From an uncultured Olsenella sp. (lineage in GTDB: Bacteria; Actinomycetota; Coriobacteriia; Coriobacteriales; Atopobiaceae): 64,000 bases of DNA. The stretch covers positions 1 through 64,000 of the forward strand of contig CASEQJ010000008.1 of the NCBI GenBank assembly GCA_949290055.1. The letters are read 5' to 3'. The translations under genes and the position numbers were made by a program. Below the pieces are notes generated by a model. The model did not search any database. It worked only from the letters and a program-made list of their open reading frames with translations, and was not told the DNA's origin. Of this stretch, positions 1,006 through 60,634 are shown one piece after another (the first letter of the stretch is position 1; every line of letters starts with the position of its first letter).

Positions 1006-1108
1006 GGGGCATCCTCTCCCGGTCGTGTGCATATCAGTTCAACAGGATAGCACGTGGACACACCTCGGCCCTGCCTCGGCTTTCCGCCGTCGGACAGCTA
1101 TGACGCGC

Positions 1109-1330
1109 TCAAAACGCTCGCTCGTGCGACAATACGCCGGATTTCAAATCAAAACGCTCGCTCGTGTGACGTAGTTTTGGCCCAAAATCACGTCCCGGAG
1201 CTGTGACTCATTCATTGTTTTATTTCTTACCTGCGGAAACGCGGCTACAGGCTCGCGCGGACTCAAAATAATCATCGCACGAGCGAGCGTTTTGATTTCC
1301 GGAAAGGGAAAATATCGCATGAGCGATCTT
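1109..1330. repeat. Array A: two direct plus two inverted copies of a ~22 bp motif, 40 bp period
   Basis: This fills the 356 bp gap between divergent valS and tatD. Copies 1 and 2 (1109-1130, 1149-1170) read TCAAAACGCTCGCTCGTGYGAC. Copy 3 (1271-1297) is the inverted form and copy 4 (1314-1329) is a shortened inverted form. Both the direct pair and the inverted pair are spaced exactly 40 bp apart. The motif CAAAACG-N4-CTCGTGTGA is shared with array B. Nothing coding is seen here. The function is unknown; it could bind a protein or be a small mobile element. Confidence 0.85.
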
Positions 1331-1361
1331 TTTTACATTCACCGTCCCGTGGGAGAGGCTT

Positions 1362-8842: not shown

Positions 8843-9639
8843 GCGACATCCCTCCTCGAGACGAGCAGCGCATCGGCGGCGGTGGCGGCAACGGTAAGCG
8901 GCAGGCAAACGATAAGTGCGCGGATGGCGGGCGCCAACAGGACGGCATTCTCGGCGGAGAGCATCGTCTGCGCCCCGGCGCCCACCGCAGACGCAATTTC
9001 CGCGGGCAGCCACGGGCCCACGGCCGCCGTCACCGTAAGGAACTCTCCGCCGAGAAACGCATACAGAAAGTCGACCCCTATGAGCAGGCCGCCCTCGATC
9101 AGTCCTCCTGCGCTGAGCACGGCAAACACCGTGGTCACGCCCTCGCTGCGCGTGAGGTGGGCCACGAGCACCGTGAGCACGACGTAGGGCGCAGCGCAGA
9201 GCCACATGCAGCCAAGCCAAGCTGCCACCTGCCACGCGGGCTCCGGATTTGCCACCGGAACCCCGGAGATCGGCAGGGCGAGAAGCCCCACCACGAACGT
9301 AAATGCGAGCAGGACGGCGGCAAGCGCAAGCGAGAAGACGCACTTCTCGGCAAACCAGGCCATGCGGGCGCGCTCACCGAGGGACGAGAGGATCGACCGC
9401 GCGAACCCGATATCGGTTCGGTCGCAGCACACGATGCCTGCCATAGCCGCAGCGAGCATCTGAACGCCCGTCATGGCGAGCGCCGAGCCGGTGAGGTCGT
9501 CATAGCAGACGGGTCCCATGCTTGTCCAGCGCATCATGAGGGCCGGCGCAAGCAGGAGAAACGCCACAATGGCAGCCACAGCCCAGATCCAACGCGAGCG
9601 CAGGACGCGGTAGGCGTCCGAGCGGAGCAGGGCGATCAT
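8839..9639 (-). CDS. ABC exporter permease subunit (first of two)
   Basis: A 266 aa membrane protein with about six hydrophobic segments, beginning MIALLRSDAYR like its downstream paralogue. Start ATG 9639 overlaps the stop of the ATPase gene by 4 nt, and its own stop overlaps the next permease by 4 nt. The tight ATPase-permease-permease-kinase coupling suggests fixed stoichiometry and one shared stimulus. Confidence 0.85.
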   Translation of the reverse strand: MIALLRSDAYRVLRSRWIWAVAAIVAFLLLAPALMMRWTSMGPVCYDDLTGSALAMTGVQMLAAAMAGIVCCDRTDIGFARSILSSLGERARMAWFAEKCVFSLALAAVLLAFTFVVGLLALPISGVPVANPEPAWQVAAWLGCMWLCAAPYVVLTVLVAHLTRSEGVTTVFAVLSAGGLIEGGLLIGVDFLYAFLGGEFLTVTAAVGPWLPAEIASAVGAGAQTMLSAENAVLLAPAIRALIVCLPLTVAATAADALLVSRRDVA

Positions 9640-10565
9640 CGGGCGCCACCGTCCTTCTCGCCCGCCTCCATGAGCTCGACGAAGTACTCCTCGATGTCGC
9701 GCTCCTGCTGGGCGAGCTCGCGGACCTCGATGCCGGCCGAGAAGCACGCGGCACTGACGTCCTCGAGCGCAACGCCCGTCACCACGAGCGCGCCGTCGGG
9801 CTCCGCACGGAAGGTCGCCTGCGGCAGCGCCCGCTCGAGCAGGGCGAGCCCGCGCTCCGGCTGCGCCAGGCGCACGCGCACCGAGCTGCCGCAGCGCTCG
9901 TGGAGCTCGCCGTCAGTGAACTCTGCGGTGAGACGACCGTTCGAAATGACGCCAAAGCGCGTGGCCACGCGGTCGAGCTGGTCAAGCACGTGGCTTGAGA
10001 TCATGATTGTGACGCCGTGCTCGTGGTTGAGGCGCACGAGCGCGAGGCGCATGGCGCGCGTGGCCTCAGGGTCGAGGCCGTTGAACGGCTCGTCCAGGAG
10101 CAACAGGTCAGGGCTGCCCACGAGCGCGAGCGCCAGGCCCAGGCGCTGCTTCATGCCGAGCGAGTAGGCCTTCACGCGGCGGTGGTCCATTGGGTCCAGG
10201 CCCACGAGGCCGAGCAGGTCGTCTGCCACCTGTCCCGCGTGCGTCATGCCGAGCGCGAGCGCCTTGGCGACGAGGTTGTCGCGCGCGGTGAGGCTGGCGA
10301 GCACGCCAGGGCTCTCTATGAGCGCGCCAATGCGGGAGAAGCCCTGCGGGGTCGCGCCGCCGTTCTCGGGGTCGCCGAAGAGGACGACCTCACCAGCCGT
10401 GGGGCGCGCCAGACCGCAGATCATTTTCATGGTGGTCGACTTGCCGGAGCCGTTCTTGCCCACGAAGCCGTAGATGTCACCGGTGGCGACGGTCATGTCC
10501 AGGTTGTCCACGGCCAGCTTGCGGCGGTAGCGCTTGGTGAGGCCGTGCGTCTCTATGACGTTCAC
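9636..10565 (-). CDS. ABC exporter ATP-binding protein (BcrA/LanF-like)
   Basis: A 309 aa nucleotide-binding subunit. Walker A is GKNGSGKST at 36-44, followed by a Q-loop region, the signature YSLGMKQRLG, Walker B LLLLDEP and the H-loop ISSHVL. The roughly 90-residue C-terminal extension matches the drug and peptide exporter subfamily. The ribosome binding site AAAGGAG precedes ATG 10565. The upstream gap contains array B, so any promoter for this operon lies within or beside that array. Confidence 0.93.
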   Translation of the reverse strand: MNVIETHGLTKRYRRKLAVDNLDMTVATGDIYGFVGKNGSGKSTTMKMICGLARPTAGEVVLFGDPENGGATPQGFSRIGALIESPGVLASLTARDNLVAKALALGMTHAGQVADDLLGLVGLDPMDHRRVKAYSLGMKQRLGLALALVGSPDLLLLDEPFNGLDPEATRAMRLALVRLNHEHGVTIMISSHVLDQLDRVATRFGVISNGRLTAEFTDGELHERCGSSVRVRLAQPERGLALLERALPQATFRAEPDGALVVTGVALEDVSAACFSAGIEVRELAQQERDIEEYFVELMEAGEKDGGAR

Positions 10566-10680: not shown

Positions 10681-10909
10681 TGCAAAACGGGCTCTCGTGT
10701 GATAAAAAGGCGCGATGGAATGCAAAACGGGCTCTCGTGTGATGATTTTTTCGCTCGTTTCAACACTTTGATTTCTCTTTCTATTTTATCAACTGGTCTT
10801 TTCCCGGCGAAGTCACTCTCTGGTGCGATGCAAGGGAAGAAAACTCATCACACGAGAGCCCGTTTTGCATTCAGGACGGGACAATCATCACACGAGAGCC
10901 CGTTTTGCA
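10681..10909. repeat. Array B: two direct plus two inverted 23-26 bp repeats, exact 40 bp period
   Basis: The direct copies at 10681-10703 and 10721-10746 read TGCAAAACGGGCTCTCGTG followed by TGAT. The inverted copies are at 10845-10869 and 10884-10909. Each pair is spaced exactly 40 bp and the copies are virtually identical. The core CAAAACG-N4-CTCGTGTGA is shared with array A. The centre (about 10747-10844) is AT-rich. It occupies the 411 bp gap between the response-regulator stop and the ABC operon start. Confidence 0.9.
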
Positions 10910-10910
10910 G

Positions 10911-10979
10911 TGAGACAAGGGGGGGCATTTGTCTCATTAATTGTGAAATGAGAAAAATGCCCCCGTCACCTTTGTCTCA
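10911..10979 (-). terminator. Nested hairpin terminator after the response regulator
   Basis: An inner stem GGGGGCATTTGTCTCAT (10921-10937) pairs with ATGAGAAAAATGCCCCC (10948-10964). An outer TGAGACAA/TTTGTCTCA arm closes it and includes the stop codon. It contains a run of seven G. Confidence 0.75.
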
Positions 10980-11663
10980 CGCGAGCTTGAAGCCCATGCC
11001 CCAGACGGTCTTGAGGTAGTCGTCGGTGCCGGTGGCGCGCAACTTGGCGCGTATGTTGGAGACGTGCACGGCCACCGTGGAGTCGTCGCCCGCAAAGGGC
11101 TCGCCCCACGCCAGCTCAAAGAGCTCGGCCTTCGAGAAAACCTTGTTCGGCCGGCGCACGAGCGCCTCGAGAATGTTGAACTCGATCCTGGTGAGCGGGA
11201 CCTCCGTGGCGTCGTCAACGGCGAGCGTGCGCGCCGTGGCGTCAAGGGTCCAGCGACGGTAGCGCAGCGCCTCGGCGGAGGCGGAGACGGCCGTGCCGCG
11301 GTGGCGCAGCTGCACGGCAACGCGCGCCGCGAGCTCGTCGAGGTCGAAGGGCTTCACGAGATAGTCGTCCGCGCCCAGGCCGAGAAGACCGATCTTGTCG
11401 GCAGCCGTCGCGCGGGCGGAGATCACCACGACGGGCGTCGCGGCGTCGCGTTCGCGAATGAGCCCCACGAGCTCCTCCCCCGTCGCGCCCGGCAGCATGA
11501 GGTCACAGACGACGAGGTCAAACGCCATGTTCTTCTCGCCCAGCAGAAGGCGTGCCTCGGAGCCGGAGAAGGCCTGCGTCACCGCGTGGCCGTCACGCGC
11601 GAGACGCGTCGTCACGACGTCGTTGATCGCCGCGTCGTCCTCAATCACCAGCACCCGCGCCAT
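10977..11663 (-). CDS. OmpR/PhoB-family response regulator
   Basis: A 228 aa regulator. The receiver domain has acidic residues Asp9 and Asp10, phospho-acceptor Asp54 (VVCDLMLPG) and the LVKPF lysine near 104. The C-terminal winged helix ends with the usual VWGMGFKL. It is transcribed in the same direction as the ABC exporter and sensor kinase and is the probable partner of that kinase, although the kinase lies four genes away. Array B lies directly downstream, in front of the exporter; whether this regulator binds it is unknown. Confidence 0.94.
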   Translation of the reverse strand: MARVLVIEDDAAINDVVTTRLARDGHAVTQAFSGSEARLLLGEKNMAFDLVVCDLMLPGATGEELVGLIRERDAATPVVVISARATAADKIGLLGLGADDYLVKPFDLDELAARVAVQLRHRGTAVSASAEALRYRRWTLDATARTLAVDDATEVPLTRIEFNILEALVRRPNKVFSKAELFELAWGEPFAGDDSTVAVHVSNIRAKLRATGTDDYLKTVWGMGFKLA

Positions 11664-19536: not shown

Positions 19537-19565
19537 TGTAAATTGGGGACAGTCCCCAATTTACA
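19537..19565. repeat. REP palindrome copy 1 (29 nt, perfect)
   Basis: TGTAAATTGGGGAC (19537-19550), a central base, then GTCCCCAATTTACA (19552-19565). It is one of four copies in the window related to the transposase gene at 20594-21355. Confidence 0.9.
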
Positions 19566-19651: not shown

Positions 19652-20575
19652 ATGGCCGGCTCTCCCCTCGGACGAACGCTGCTGATCGCCAACCCTGCCG
19701 CCCACAGCGGCAAGGGCGCCGCCGGCGCCGACTTTGCCCGTCACTTTCTGGGGAGCTTTGCCACCGCCACTCGTGGGTACGAGGTGCGCCTCACCCAGGG
19801 GCCGGGAGATGCCGTGGGCATTGCCGCCGGCGCCGTGGGCTTTGACACGGTGCTCGCGCTTGGCGGAGACGGCGTCATTCACGAGGTCGTAAACGGTCTC
19901 ATGAGGCTTCCCCAGTCCGCCCGACCGCAGCTCGGCATCATTCCCCTTGGGTCGGGCAACGACTACGCCCGCACGCTCGGCATGATGAAAAACGACGTGG
20001 AGGGCGCCTTTGCCCAGCTCGTGCGTGGCTCCGTGCGCGGGCTCGAGGTCGGCAGCGTCAACGGTGTTTACTTCATGCAGACGCTCTCGTTTGGTCTTGA
20101 CGCGGCAATTGCGCTCGACACTACGGAGCGGCGCACGGCCAACACCTCTCAGGAGGGGGAGGCGCTCTTCATCACCTCCGGACTCAAGATCCTCTCTCGG
20201 GCAAAGGACGGCTTCCCCTGCACCGCAAGCTTTGACGGCGAGAAGCCCGTCGACCTCAAGACGCTCATCTTTGCCGTGCAGGTGGGGCCCACCTACGGGG
20301 GCGGCTTCAAGGTTTGCCCGGGCGCCGATCCCGGAGACGGGCTTCTCGACGTCTGCTACAACGTCAGAAAGCCATTGCTCCCCCACCTGCTCGCGCTCTT
20401 TGGGCTGGCACGTAGCGGTCAACACGCAAGGTCACGCGTCGTGAGCCTGCGCCACATCCGTCACGCCGAGATCGACTTTGCGGAGGAGCCGCCCTGCCAG
20501 GTCGACGGCGAGCGCCTCATCGGCAGCCACTTTGTCATTGACGTCATCCCCCACGCCCTCCGCGTCGTCTGTTAA
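19652..20575 (+). CDS. Diacylglycerol/lipid kinase family protein (YegS/BmrU-like)
   Basis: A 307 aa cytoplasmic or membrane-peripheral kinase that phosphorylates a lipid such as diacylglycerol. The catalytic domain shows LLIANPAAHSGKG near the N-terminus, the nucleotide-binding LALGGDGVIHEVVNGL around 80-95, and IIPLGSGNDYARTLGM about 20 residues later. The C-terminal half shows the usual beta-sandwich ending with QVDGERL. ATG 19652 with GAGAAGGA upstream is preferred to an earlier ATG at 19607. Its stop codon lies inside REP copy 2. Confidence 0.92.
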   Translation: MAGSPLGRTLLIANPAAHSGKGAAGADFARHFLGSFATATRGYEVRLTQGPGDAVGIAAGAVGFDTVLALGGDGVIHEVVNGLMRLPQSARPQLGIIPLGSGNDYARTLGMMKNDVEGAFAQLVRGSVRGLEVGSVNGVYFMQTLSFGLDAAIALDTTERRTANTSQEGEALFITSGLKILSRAKDGFPCTASFDGEKPVDLKTLIFAVQVGPTYGGGFKVCPGADPGDGLLDVCYNVRKPLLPHLLALFGLARSGQHARSRVVSLRHIRHAEIDFAEEPPCQVDGERLIGSHFVIDVIPHALRVVC

Positions 20576-20598
20576 TTGGGGACAGTCCCCAATTTACA
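20570..20598. repeat. REP palindrome copy 2, shared by two converging stop codons
   Basis: TGTTAATTGGGGAC, a central base, then GTCCCCAATTTACA, with one arm mismatch. The left arm contains the TAA of the lipid kinase and the right arm the TAA of the transposase on the opposite strand. Confidence 0.9.
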
Positions 20599-21444: not shown

Positions 21445-21459
21445 AAAGATTTGTGCTAA

Positions 21460-21476
21460 TTGGGGACTGTCCCCAA
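21460..21476. repeat. REP palindrome copy 3 (core only)
   Basis: TTGGGGAC-T-GTCCCCAA keeps the core palindrome, while the outer bases on the right have diverged. It lies 8 bp after the ptsI stop and upstream of the RAYT gene. Confidence 0.8.
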
Positions 21477-21484
21477 CGAACAGG

Positions 21485-51626: not shown

Positions 51627-51772
51627 ATGTTTTGGGGCAATCATTTTATGCTCTGATTAAAATAGTGTTGCAAAACTTTGCCACGTACGCCACAAGCACG
51701 AAATTACGGCCCCGAACGAGGCCCGTTTGGCTGCGTGCGTGCGGCGAGCATAAAACTTGTTGCCCAAAACCA
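51627..51772. repeat. Array D: GTTTTGGGGCAA-type repeats
   Basis: The direct copy at 51627-51654 reads CATGTTTTGGGGCAATCATT followed by TTATGC. A clear inverted copy lies at 51746-51772 (GCATAAAACTTGTTGCCCAA onward). A degenerate inverted copy is at about 51670-51683. The copies match those of arrays E and F. The gap between the S33 gene and asd (342 bp) has no gene. Confidence 0.8.
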
Positions 51773-52930: not shown

Positions 52931-52959
52931 TGTAAATTGGGGACTGTCCCCAATTTACA
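52931..52959. repeat. REP palindrome copy 4 (29 nt, perfect)
   Basis: TGTAAATTGGGGAC, a central T, then GTCCCCAATTTACA. It lies one base after the lysC stop, far (32 kb) from the RAYT gene, showing that the family is dispersed. Confidence 0.9.
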
Positions 52960-57024: not shown

Positions 57025-57929
57025 TCGGGGCCGACGGGAGGGAGCGCCCGGTCGCGATCGTGCGCGTGCCCGCGACGAGCGCGAACGTGGGCGTGGGCTT
57101 TGACTGCCTTGGCCTTGCGCTCGACCTCACGGCGACGTTTCTCATGACGCCCGCGGAGCAACTCGAGATCGTGGGCTGCGAGGAGCGCTTCCGTGGGGAG
57201 GACAACCTCGTCTGGCAGAGCTACCTCGACGCGTGCGCGCGCCTCGGCGTGGAGCCAACGCCGCTGCACATAACGATTCTCTCCCCCATACCGCTCTCGG
57301 GCGGCCTGGGGTCGAGCTCCGCCTGCGTGATCGCGGGCATAGCCGGCGCCATGGCGCTCTCGGGGGACGGCTTTGACCGCGAGCGCGCCCTCGAGCTCGC
57401 CTGCTCCGAGGAGGGCCACCCCGACAACGTGGCGCCGGCGCTGCTCGGCGGGCTCGTGAGCTCGTTCGTGAGCGACGGGCAGACCACCTCCACGCGCATG
57501 GACGTGGCTGACAACCTGCGCTTTGTTGCCATTGCGCCGCCCTATGAGGTGCGCACGGCCGACGCGCGGCGCGTGCTGCCGGAGGAGGTCTCGCGCGAGA
57601 CGGCCGTCTGGCAAATGGGCCGGTGCGTGGCCACGGTGCGCGCGCTCGAGCTCGGTGACGCGGAGCTGCTCTCCAAGGCGTGCCACGACCGGCTGCACGA
57701 GCCGTACCGCGCCAAGCTGATCCCGGACTACGAGGCCCTGCGGGCTGCGGCGCTCGGGGCCGGCGCGTGCGCGTTCATGATCTCCGGCTCCGGGTCCACG
57801 ATGCTCGCGGTTGCTGACGGCGACGAGGTCGCCGGGCGCGTGGCGGCGGCGCTTGCCGAGGCATGCCCCGGGTACTGGCTGCGCACCCTGCCCGCCAACA
57901 CCCTCGGCACCACCGTCGAGGTCCACTAG
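57021..57929 (+). CDS. thrB: Homoserine kinase
   Basis: A 302 aa GHMP-family kinase making phosphohomoserine. Motif 1 is VPATSANVGVGFDCLG, the ATP-binding loop is PLSGGLGSSSA, and the third motif appears as FMISGSGSTMLAV. The start GTG 57021 overlaps the thrC stop, so the two are translationally coupled. CTTCTCG follows 10 nt after the stop, ahead of a tandem repeat. Confidence 0.95.
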   Translation: MIGADGRERPVAIVRVPATSANVGVGFDCLGLALDLTATFLMTPAEQLEIVGCEERFRGEDNLVWQSYLDACARLGVEPTPLHITILSPIPLSGGLGSSSACVIAGIAGAMALSGDGFDRERALELACSEEGHPDNVAPALLGGLVSSFVSDGQTTSTRMDVADNLRFVAIAPPYEVRTADARRVLPEEVSRETAVWQMGRCVATVRALELGDAELLSKACHDRLHEPYRAKLIPDYEALRAAALGAGACAFMISGSGSTMLAVADGDEVAGRVAAALAEACPGYWLRTLPANTLGTTVEVH

Positions 57930-57952
57930 CCGCACGTACTTCTCGCCCGTCC

Positions 57953-58038
57953 GCGGCCCGACGCCCTTCTCGCCCGACGCCCCTCTCGTGCACTTGCGGC
58001 CCGACGCCCTTCTCGCCCGACGCCCCTCTCGTGCACCC
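57953..58038. repeat. Two tandem 43 bp repeats after thrB
   Basis: Units 57953-57995 and 57996-58038 are almost identical (41 of 43) and begin GCGGCCCGACGCCCTTCTCG. Each contains one CTTCTCGCCC. A partial third unit begins after the second. No gene is seen. Confidence 0.85.
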
Positions 58039-58050
58039 GCGGCCCTGCCC

Positions 58051-58175
58051 CCATGTTTTGGGCAACATCTTTGATGCGCTGACACGTTCAAGCGGGTTTT
58101 GCATAAGAGATGTTGCCCACAACGTTGAAAAGCATGGCCATTCAGGTTGGCAGCATAAAACGTTTGCCCCAAAAG
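58051..58175. repeat. Array E: TTGGGCAAC-type repeats after thrB
   Basis: The direct copy at 58051-58080 reads CCATGTTTTGGGCAACATCT followed by TTGATGC. Inverted copies lie at 58095-58124 and 58152-58175, about 51 bp apart. It is the same family as arrays D and F and lies 66 bp beyond the 3' end of the DUF559 gene. Confidence 0.85.
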
Positions 58176-58240: not shown

Positions 58241-59338
58241 CTACGCAGCCAGTGTGGACCCCGCGGCCGCGCGCATGTCGTCAATGAACCGCAGAAGACG
58301 GTTTCGCAGCCCGACCTGCCGTGTCGCGTCCCGCGCCCCAGGCTGCCGCCAGCGCCGCCCCAGCCCCGTCGTCACCGACTTGGCAACCTCGTCCATAAGC
58401 GACGCCCGCTCGAGCATGGAACGGTCTACCTCGACCACCTTCCAGCCGTCCGCCCCGAGGACGTTCCCCTTGCGCCGGTCATACGAGCGGCGGCTGCGCA
58501 GCTTGTGCTGTGCACCCTGAAACTCCGCCACGAGCCCATACCCCTCCCAGCTCAAATCGCAGACGAACTCGTCTATGCCAAAGAGCCTGGCTGCCTCCGC
58601 CCCAAGCCGCACGCTCGCGTTCAGCCGCGCGGGCGGGAGCCCGTAGCCGCCCATGCGTCGCGGCATGGTGAGAACCATGGACAGCACCGCCTCCTCCGGC
58701 GAGGCGGCGCCGTCGCGAACGTGCGCGAGCGCGGCGCGTGCCTTGCGCAGGCCCCACGGCATGCCCTCGCCGCGACTCGCCCGAAGCGCCTCAAGTCGAT
58801 CGAGGTACGCCTCGAGGCGCTCCGTGCTGGTGAGCGCCGGACAGTTGCAGAAGCCGTGCTCCCCCATGCCGTGGGCGAAGCAGCCGCAGAGCTCGTGACC
58901 ATACAGGACGAGCAGCTCTTCGCTCAGAGCGCGCGCCGCCTGCAGGAAGGTGAGCTCGGGGCACGTCACCATGATTCCCTCGTCAAGCCCAAAGAACGAG
59001 CCCACGGGATAGGACCCCGTCATGAGGTGGCACGTGGCACCCGCTATGAAGCGGCGCCCCCTCTGCCGGGACACGCAGAGGTCAAGGGTGGCCGGCGCCT
59101 CGGTGAGCGCGAGGCGGGCCTGCGTGACAAGCGCTCCGTCAACGGTCTCCGGGACCTTGCTCGCGCGGGTCCGGCGCGGCATGGAGCCCAGGTCGATTCC
59201 TTCGCCGCGCTCAAAGAGCAGCCGCACGAGCAGAGGCGGTCGCGTCGCTGTGGGAGGATTGGCCTCCGCCACGCGCCGGCCGACGGCCCGCCACACCCAC
59301 TGCGCGGTCTCGAACCCCAAAAGCAGCCTCTCGCCCAT
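58241..59338 (-). CDS. DUF559/Vsr-like endonuclease-domain protein (AbiEi-like architecture)
   Basis: A 365 aa protein. The C-terminal domain (about 260-320) carries VCDLSWEGYGLVAEFQGAQH and KVVEVDRSML. This fits the D-(x)-EFxGxxH core of DUF559 and very-short-patch-type nucleases. The N-terminal 250 residues are of unknown fold with cysteines in CGCFAHGMGEHGFCNC, possibly a metal site. Related proteins are sometimes labelled AbiEi-like antitoxins, but no toxin gene is adjacent. ATG 59338 has GAGAGGGG upstream. It is bracketed by repeat arrays E and F. Confidence 0.75.
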   Translation of the reverse strand: MGERLLLGFETAQWVWRAVGRRVAEANPPTATRPPLLVRLLFERGEGIDLGSMPRRTRASKVPETVDGALVTQARLALTEAPATLDLCVSRQRGRRFIAGATCHLMTGSYPVGSFFGLDEGIMVTCPELTFLQAARALSEELLVLYGHELCGCFAHGMGEHGFCNCPALTSTERLEAYLDRLEALRASRGEGMPWGLRKARAALAHVRDGAASPEEAVLSMVLTMPRRMGGYGLPPARLNASVRLGAEAARLFGIDEFVCDLSWEGYGLVAEFQGAQHKLRSRRSYDRRKGNVLGADGWKVVEVDRSMLERASLMDEVAKSVTTGLGRRWRQPGARDATRQVGLRNRLLRFIDDMRAAAGSTLAA

Positions 59339-59607: not shown

Positions 59608-59737
59608 CCATGTTTTGGGGCAAATCATTTATGCCAACAAGCGGGACGGCCGTGTTTCACAAGGTTGTGGGCAACACGTTTGATGCAAAACCCGCGCCAA
59701 GGCGGCAGCCCATCAAAGTTGTTGCCCAATACATGCA
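59608..59737. repeat. Array F: GTTTTGGGGCAA-type repeats between the DUF559 gene and livF
   Basis: Direct copies lie at 59608-59635 (CCATGTTTTGGGGCAAATCA onward) and 59661-59693 (GGTTGTGGGCAACACGTTTG onward). An inverted copy lies at 59708-59737. The first is almost identical to the first copy of array D, 8 kb away. Confidence 0.85.
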
Positions 59738-60634
59738 AGTTGGCTTGCGATCCGGAGAAGAGCGGAAAAGGCGGGCGAGAAGAGCGGCAGGCGAGAAGGA
59801 CAAACGGGCTGTGGGCGAGAAGAGCGGCGGGCGAGAAGGACAAACGAAGCGCAAGCGAGAAGGACCTCGGCGCAAAAAAACGGCGACGGACCCGGGAGGA
59901 GGAGTGGTCCGTCGCCGCCTGACGCCATAGGTGTAGGAGGCGCTACCCGCCGAGGTACGCCTTGCGGACGTCGTCGTCCACCAGGAGCTCTTGATCGTGC
60001 CGATCTCGAGCACGTAGGCGCGGTCAGCGATCGAGAGCGCCATGTTGGCGTTCTGCTCGACCAGAAGAATCGTCGTTCCCGCCTCGTTCAGCTGCTTCAC
60101 AATGTCAAAGATCTCCTGCACCAGAATCGGCGCGAGACCCATGGACGGCTCGTCGAGCATGAGCAGGCGCGGACGGCTCATGAGGGCGCGCCCCATGGCC
60201 AGCATTTGCTGCTCGCCGCCCGAGAGCGTGCCGGCCACCTGGCCGCGGCGCTCCTTCAGGCGTGGGAAGTGCGCGTAGACCTTCTCGAGCGTCTCCCCGT
60301 TCTCGGCGTCCGAGCGCGTGTACCCGCCCATTTCAAGGTTCTCCGCCACGGTCATTTGCGTGAAGACGCGCCGACCCTCGGGGCAGAGCGCCATGCCACG
60401 GCCCACGACCTTGTGCGCGGGCACGCCCACCACAGACGCGCCGTCAAACTCCACGGAGCCCGACTCGGGCTTGATCAGCCCGGCCACGGTGTTGAGCGTC
60501 GTCGACTTGCCGGCGCCGTTCGCGCCAATCAGCGTCACGATCTCGCCCTCGTTGATGTCGAAGGAGATTCCGCGCACCGCCTTGATCGCCCCATAGGAGA
60601 CGTGCAGGTCCTGTACGGAAAGCAGGGACGCCAT
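59657..60634 (-). CDS. livF: LivF, branched-chain amino acid ABC ATPase, with frameshifted C-terminus
   Basis: ATP-binding subunit of the high-affinity leucine/isoleucine/valine importer. Walker A is GANGAGKST at 37-45, the signature is LSGGEQQML, Walker B is LLMLDEPSMGL and the H-loop is LVEQNANMAL. After YVLEIGTI the frame shifts: the normal ending ELLVDDDVRKAYLGG and its stop at 59943 are in another frame. The open frame therefore runs about 95 residues further, through the terminator and into array F. About 19 nt seem to have been lost near 59990. The core is intact, so the protein may still work, or the gene may be damaged. Confidence 0.85.
   Translation of the reverse strand: MASLLSVQDLHVSYGAIKAVRGISFDINEGEIVTLIGANGAGKSTTLNTVAGLIKPESGSVEFDGASVVGVPAHKVVGRGMALCPEGRRVFTQMTVAENLEMGGYTRSDAENGETLEKVYAHFPRLKERRGQVAGTLSGGEQQMLAMGRALMSRPRLLMLDEPSMGLAPILVQEIFDIVKQLNEAGTTILLVEQNANMALSIADRAYVLEIGTIKSSWWTTTSARRTSAGSASYTYGVRRRRTTPPPGSVAVFLRRGPSRLRFVCPSRPPLFSPTARLSFSPAALLARLFRSSPDRKPTCMYWATTLMGCRLGAGFASNVLPTTL
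59773..59862. repeat. Tandem 40 bp repeat rich in CGAGAAG
   Basis: Two units of about 40 bp (59773 and 59813 starts) read GGGCGAGAAGAGCGGC then RGGCGAGAAGGACAAACG. Five CGAGAAG copies fall in 90 bp, all in the same orientation, which is CTTCTCG read in the livF direction. Confidence 0.8.
59874..59917 (-). terminator. Terminator of the liv operon
   Basis: GGCGACGGACC (59882-59892) pairs with GGTCCGTCGCC (59906-59916), followed by seven T on the minus strand. It lies 26 bp after the original livF stop at 59943. Confidence 0.9.

Follow-up and report, generated by a model that had tools for sequence, protein, structure and literature searches.

Why should one 23-bp sequence stand four times, twice in direct and twice in inverted orientation, in an intergenic stretch between the gene for an OmpR-type response regulator and an exporter operon? 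This question is raised by array B, a repeat array within a 64-kb window of DNA (i.e., the whole stretch analysed, 64,000 nucleotides long) from an uncultured Olsenella sp. The sequence analysis described below indicates that array B probably belongs to a family of non-coding elements that are dispersed between genes and paired with an endonuclease-like protein; this protein would bind the elements and take part in their dispersal. On this reading, the paired protein is a single-copy, vertically inherited and fast-diversifying partner.

Array B and its surroundings

The original prediction described two direct and two inverted repeats at exactly 40-bp spacing, and both their coordinates and their identity were reproduced (Table 1). 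The repeat TGCAAAACGGGCTCTCGTGTGAT occurs in the window in four copies that are identical over all 23 bp, and the two copies of each pair are spaced exactly 40 bp apart. When up to three mismatches are allowed, exactly four matches are found in the window and none in 100 shuffles. An independent detector, which searches for two direct and two inverted 22-mers (2+2), finds exactly two elements in the 64-kb window, namely array B and a second element of the same family (array A), and no elements in shuffled window sequence. The four repeats, which had been taken as the unit, are thus real; however, the unit is larger, because it includes an asymmetric core, GATTTCTCTTTCTATTTTATCAACTGGTCTTTTCC, which is set in constant helical phase between the two pairs. 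An arrangement of two direct and two inverted copies with a core between them is unlike a CRISPR array, and the view that the locus is neither a terminator nor a CRISPR is upheld. Palindromes of the TGAGACAAA...TTTGTCTCA type, one of which lies directly beside array B, also occur beside or in place of elements in relatives (G027 and G030) and are perhaps REP-like. A further palindrome, TGTAAATTGGGGACAGTCCCCAATTTACA, is dispersed in intergenic positions and perhaps belongs to another element family.

Table 1. Positions of arrays, genes and further repeats in the 64-kb window
Feature	Position	Strand	Remarks
Array A, second element of the same family	1108-1334		between valS and tatD
Array A arms	1110-1129, 1150-1169, 1275-1294, 1315-1334 (degenerate)	+, +, -, -	core 1208-1242
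Exporter-operon ABC transporter ATPase	9636-10565	-	neighbour of array B, outside the system
Array B, whole element	10681-10909
Array B outer-left arm	10681-10703	+	23 bp
Array B inner-left arm	10721-10743	+	starts 40 bp after outer-left arm
Array B T-tract beside inner arm	10746-10751	+	position logo, 39 elements
Array B asymmetric core	10770-10804	+	motif fitted over 73 elements; 27 bp from left inner arm
Array B inner-right arm	10847-10869	-
Array B outer-right arm	10887-10909	-
Palindrome beside array B	10921-10964
OmpR-type response regulator	10977-11663	-	neighbour of array B, outside the system
Dispersed palindrome	19537-19565, 20570-20598, 21458-21482, 52931-52959		intergenic
Second-family solo element	51630-51769
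Imperfect tandem repeat	57926-58054		43 nt x3
Second-family element, downstream side of paralog gene	58056-58174		arms 58056+, 58101-, 58153-
Remote paralog of the presumed arm-binding protein	58241-59338	-	365 aa, DUF559-like nuclease domain
Second-family element, upstream side of paralog gene	59613-59731		arms 59613+, 59665+, 59710-
Imperfect tandem repeat	59773-59852		40 nt x2

Architecture of the element family

The genome from which the window comes (G000; 2.13 Mb in a fragmented assembly of 78 contigs, 94% complete) holds 12 complete elements, each approx. 230 bp long and built on the plan of array B, i.e., arm-17-arm / asymmetric core / arm-17-arm. The genome-wide motif search that had been suggested for array B thus shows that its motif is not absent elsewhere. 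Two species besides this one carry approx. 14 elements apiece; in three species, 39 elements are counted, all of them 2+2 at 40 bp. Up to 16 copies occur per chromosome. Within a set of 73 elements, for which the search prescribed a direct spacing of 40 bp that holds in every case, the distance between the inner arms is 124-126 bp in 59 elements, 114-116 bp in nine and 134-135 bp in four, with one misfit at 164 bp; these distances are almost exclusively whole helical turns. The core (consensus over the 73 elements, GATTnnAnTnTTgATnTTnnnAnCTGsGnAAACGC) mostly lies 27 bp, sometimes 38 bp, from one inner arm and approx. 32, 42 or 53 bp from the other, so that the steps in arm-arm and in arm-core distance each equal one helical turn. 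A logo of 39 elements reveals a T-tract followed by G-n-CCC (TTTTT-n-G-n-CCC) just inside the inner arms, conserved in all elements, and a terminal TG of which the T is conserved on the outer arms only. The 17-bp spacers between paired arms are unconserved.

The spacing of 40 bp had been equated with about four helical turns. A spacing of 40-41 bp is indeed kept nearly everywhere and in all arm variants (dialects, see below), but 40 bp corresponds to approx. 3.8 turns of B-DNA; the view that helical geometry matters is upheld. Such phasing of arms and core is characteristic of proteins assembled on one face of bent DNA.

The elements flank valS/tatD, gpmA/glnA, def/trmL, yebC, engB and other genes, which form no common regulon. 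An RNA guide gene was rejected, as no convincing stray motif copy was found outside the elements of the own genome. The arms fold no better than shuffles in four of five dialects. The variable N4 positions of paired arms are alike at 0.53-0.60 within an element and at 0.51 between elements; since this likeness is barely higher within elements, stem pairing is not maintained, and an RNA structure was rejected on this ground. In the closed genome G028, GC skew was uninformative on the placement of elements relative to origin and terminus, and dnaA was not located.

Arm dialects, orthologous sites and the question of movement

Genome scans identified Thermophilibacter gallinarum DSM 107455 (G004), 'Olsenella uli' An820 (G030), Olsenella sp. 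An270 (G014) and Atopobium sp. UBA1382 as relatives, which places the window genome in the Thermophilibacter group. One genome per species was compared, a design that hides gain and loss at the level of strains. A relaxed pair search recovered the architecture in 11 of 31 genomes of the genus and nowhere among 109 genomes from the rest of the bacterial family. The arms occur in dialects, in which CAAAACG-N4-CTCGTG is followed by TGATGA, CAACAT, ATGAA, CCACA or ATGGAA. Most elements occupy the same intergenic regions across dialects, i.e., the architecture is kept and the arm sequence differs. For example, the def-trmL intergene carries a 2+2 element at 40-41 bp in 14 of 30 species, the other species being without one; its arms comprise about ten unrelated sequences (compare GCAGTCACCGGGATAGTGCGAA with TTTGCAATTTGGCCATAACTG), and the CTGSG core between them is shared. 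The element at the gpmA-glnA site is absent from close relatives. Overall, the arm sequence shifts between species, and the neighbouring genes stay approx. 80% alike.

Within a dialect, the arms are constrained. Between G004 and G016, whose glnA genes are 1% apart, three orthologous elements have accumulated 5 changes in 288 arm positions vs. 42 in 398 positions of the remainder (p=2e-6), in agreement with the earlier view that the copies are under selection. Non-orthologous family-1 copies from one genome are unlike outside arms and core, and even the likeness of their cores is not above chance (0.48). Target-site duplications show no excess at k=5-9, and the excess at k=4 is the palindrome TGCA at the element ends. 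Given this chance-level likeness and the lack of target duplication, no recent movement of family 1 is visible.

At one locus in G028 and G030, which share a dialect, core and arms of the element face opposite ways with respect to the genes beside them; this may reflect an inversion or an independent insertion. Flips of core orientation between species at the same locus may point to an inverton, but the homology of opposite-orientation cores is weak (0.55 vs. a baseline of 0.49). In G023, the gpmA-glnA intergene, where the window genome has a 2+2 element, is occupied by a larger array of approx. four direct and five inverted CGAGAAA...CCGTACC units, perhaps the family of yet another paralog of the protein described below.

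The likely partner protein

The likely partner of array B is encoded elsewhere in the genome rather than by the adjacent response regulator gene. The candidate, a protein of 335 aa that Pfam leaves unnamed, is encoded on contig C18 (148-1155) beside the element there. Its orthologs flank an element in every dialect first checked, and protein divergence follows dialect. A profile search found the ortholog in 26 of 31 genomes of the genus, once in each, together with many remote paralogs. In all 26, a 2+2 element in the dialect of the respective genome is situated no more than approx. 40 bp from the stop codon of the ortholog (24 of them found by the detector, and those of G014 and G017 by direct inspection of the sequence). 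The same holds for three of three orthologs from two other genera, which brings the total to 29/29; at approx. 14 elements per 2 Mb, chance adjacency of gene and element is negligible. The partner locus is syntenic, with a TlyC-type gene following in 24 of 25 other members of the genus and in two of three cases outside it.

Protein and arm divergence correlate beyond phylogeny, and this correlation is moderate (Mantel r=0.51; partial r=0.46 given glnA divergence; both p=0.0005). The arms are tracked best by residues 39-89, where the protein is most variable. In a comparison of 12 genomes, moreover, the arms beside the partner gene agree with those found at def-trmL in the same genome (16.0 vs. 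11.5 matches, p=5e-5). The G004 and G016 proteins agree over approx. the first 62 residues and diverge after them, and the element behind the gene carries CAACAT in one of these genomes and ATGAA in the other; such mosaic alleles suggest that recombination swaps specificity. In G002, G003 and G004, a further dialect occurs for which no matching ortholog is present, and G005 lacks the ortholog yet has a def-trmL element; these cases require the assumption of relics, of polymorphic alleles or of a paralog that serves the elements.

The C-terminal part bears the signature D...E-Y...H...D, in which D231, E241, H248 and D257 are invariant in the 26 orthologs and which corresponds to that of PD-(D/E)XK/DUF559 proteins. 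DUF559 (up to 1.4e-5) and REase_MTES_1575 are matched by the 26 orthologs and 10 paralogs, mostly below curated cut-offs, and Y1_Tnp is never matched. A profile search of solved structures with the partner protein returned nothing. Thus, judging from these profile matches, the partner is likely a putative DUF559/MTES_1575-type PD-(D/E)XK endonuclease-like protein with a variable N-terminal half.

Remote paralogs and a second arm family

One remote paralog is encoded in the window itself, and its gene is flanked by two elements that belong to a second arm family, TTTTGGGCAACnnnTTTdATGC, which numbers 118 arms genome-wide. Second-family elements are 119, 130, 140 or 150 bp long, and the distances of their inverted pairs again step by one turn (35/45; 97/107/118/129). 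Several copies are up to 80% alike along the entire 119-150 bp, a sign of copying. Among 19 further paralogs in six species, approx. 12 are flanked on either side by repeat blocks that match each other (71-98% identical), several of which carry the core CTACCTGCGGAAACG (a CTGCGG core) or close variants; six of the 19 have no flanking repeats. Imperfect tandem repeats also lie near the window paralog (Table 1).

Relation to known systems

Several features recall REPIN-RAYT systems, in which doublets of REP sequences are served by REP-associated tyrosine transposases (PMC3116915). These likewise comprise dispersed intergenic miniature elements with conserved inverted arms and a lineage-specific sequence, a single-copy, non-spreading enzyme gene with elements adjoining, several enzyme-element pairs per genome, and co-evolution of enzyme and repeat (PMC3116915). 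Repeats both beside the enzyme gene and dispersed between genes are found here (26/26 plus 3/3; 12 elements in the own genome). However, the partner is of the PD-(D/E)XK/DUF559 type and not a Y1 HUH transposase, the arms form no hairpins, paired arms lack complementarity at their N4 positions, and four arms are helically phased around a shared asymmetric core. Both defining features of REPIN-RAYT, i.e., the Y1 enzyme and palindromic hairpin repeats, are thus absent.

As regards arm binding, AbiEi-type antitoxins offer an analogy. They recognise non-palindromic 23-bp sites as monomers, the sites being arranged in inverted pairs; Rv2827c occupies four such repeats, AbiEi bends DNA, and operator spacing differs by 10 bp between systems (PMC7319586). 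In contrast to the elements described here, AbiEi operators are confined to their own promoter and have no copies scattered elsewhere, and the toxin is a nucleotidyltransferase (PMC7319586). The scanned orthologs gave no Pfam or NCBIfam match to an AbiEi domain, and their downstream neighbour is the TlyC-type gene; the likeness to AbiEi is one of analogy, homology not being detected by Pfam. A further likeness is to DUF559 and REase_MTES_1575 (PF04480, PF18741), whose C-terminal PD-(D/E)XK signature is present in orthologs and paralogs alike. In the open-access literature, neither a DNA target nor a dispersed partner element is described for such proteins, and no description of an element/protein pair of the present kind was found.

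Proposed mechanism and alternative explanations

The reading of array B as one of many copies served by a distant protein is set upon computational observations, namely the architecture, turn quantisation, conservation at orthologous sites, selection on arms, gene linkage and co-divergence. Each 23-bp arm would be bound by one protomer through the variable region (approx. residues 40-95), and bending of the approx. 125 bp between them would bring the two inverted pairs together. Four protomers could then face the core from one side of the helix, where the conserved nuclease domain would act on, or be positioned at, the conserved CTGSG core. Binding and cleavage of the elements by the partner protein are inferred. 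The most likely outcome, which is favoured over a purely structural role, is that the elements are dispersed or rewritten as an enzyme-dependent miniature-element system; such a system would operate in the manner of REPIN-RAYT, although its enzyme would be unrelated and its nucleoprotein complex double-stranded and phased.

Instead of being dispersed, arms and core may have a host role in chromosome structure or regulation. According to such an explanation, the same protein would bind domesticated sites as structural or regulatory anchors (for looping, domain boundaries or transcription), its nuclease being inactive or used elsewhere. The persistence of elements at orthologous intergenic loci, purifying selection on the arms, helical phasing, and the lack of target duplications and of whole-length likeness among family-1 copies all agree with domestication. 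However, the neighbouring genes share no theme, the presence of elements differs between close species, the putative catalytic residues are invariant, and the arm dialects change far quicker than host architecture would. In addition, second-family copies look copied, and paralogs are bracketed by near-identical blocks. Domestication without dispersal is therefore regarded as unlikely, albeit with some residual weight. Ordinary MITEs with 5'-TG..CA-3' ends, moved by a conventional DDE/rve transposase or tyrosine recombinase, would also be short, non-coding and intergenic with terminal inverted arms, as these elements are, and would account for the T of the terminal TG being kept on outer arms only and for presence or absence between close species. 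Yet G030 has 14 elements without an rve transposase, and G003 and G004, where 12-13 elements occur, each encode no more than two tyrosine recombinases, probably XerC and XerD. Neither target duplication nor a conventional transposase is found here, the ends are multi-armed and phased, and only arms and core are conserved between copies; whole-length likeness is absent in family 1 and present in the second family. This origin is largely refuted and now very improbable. Derivation from a known insertion sequence, which the original prediction had named as grounds for its own refutation, fares no better, as none explains the elements and no dedicated tyrosine recombinase or rve transposase tracks them.

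The attachment site of bacteriophage lambda, attP, likewise consists of arms and a core and tolerates changes by helical turns. The elements are similar in size and tolerance, which could speak for a lambda-type integrase attachment site. Nevertheless, no integrase gene accompanies them, G003 and G004 have no dedicated tyrosine recombinase, up to 16 copies per chromosome exist, and two exact-pattern scans of viral contigs found none, so that such a site is hardly credible. A phage origin was itself rejected on these empty scans. Finally, array B could be an operator through which the OmpR-type response regulator controls the ABC exporter operon. The placement between these genes, noted in the original prediction, is true of its location, and nothing else supports an operator; it appears incidental, since eleven more copies stand beside unrelated genes, and the arms change between species even where the neighbouring genes remain similar. 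This explanation, too, has almost no probability.

Implications for DUF559-type proteins

For DUF559-type endonuclease-like proteins, several paralogs of which occur per genome here, the enzyme-element pairing provides a concrete candidate DNA partner and hence a testable function. It seems somewhat better than an even chance that the DUF559-type proteins of this bacterial family each own dispersed, helically phased multi-arm elements with one universal core; they would form an undescribed enzyme-element class, whose arm-recognition part and sites change together as 'dialects' within one genus. More than 12 dialects of the 23-bp site with matching protein alleles constitute a natural record of rapid protein-DNA co-evolution, and the stretch of the partner protein that likely sets specificity has been narrowed down. 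Because arm-arm and arm-core distances change strictly by single turns, the complex lends itself unusually well to biochemical work. Should the elements prove mobile, they would represent a second enzyme solution to the REPIN problem, i.e., why a single-copy enzyme and cargo-less repeats persist; if they are not, they would point to an unknown system of chromosomal architecture.
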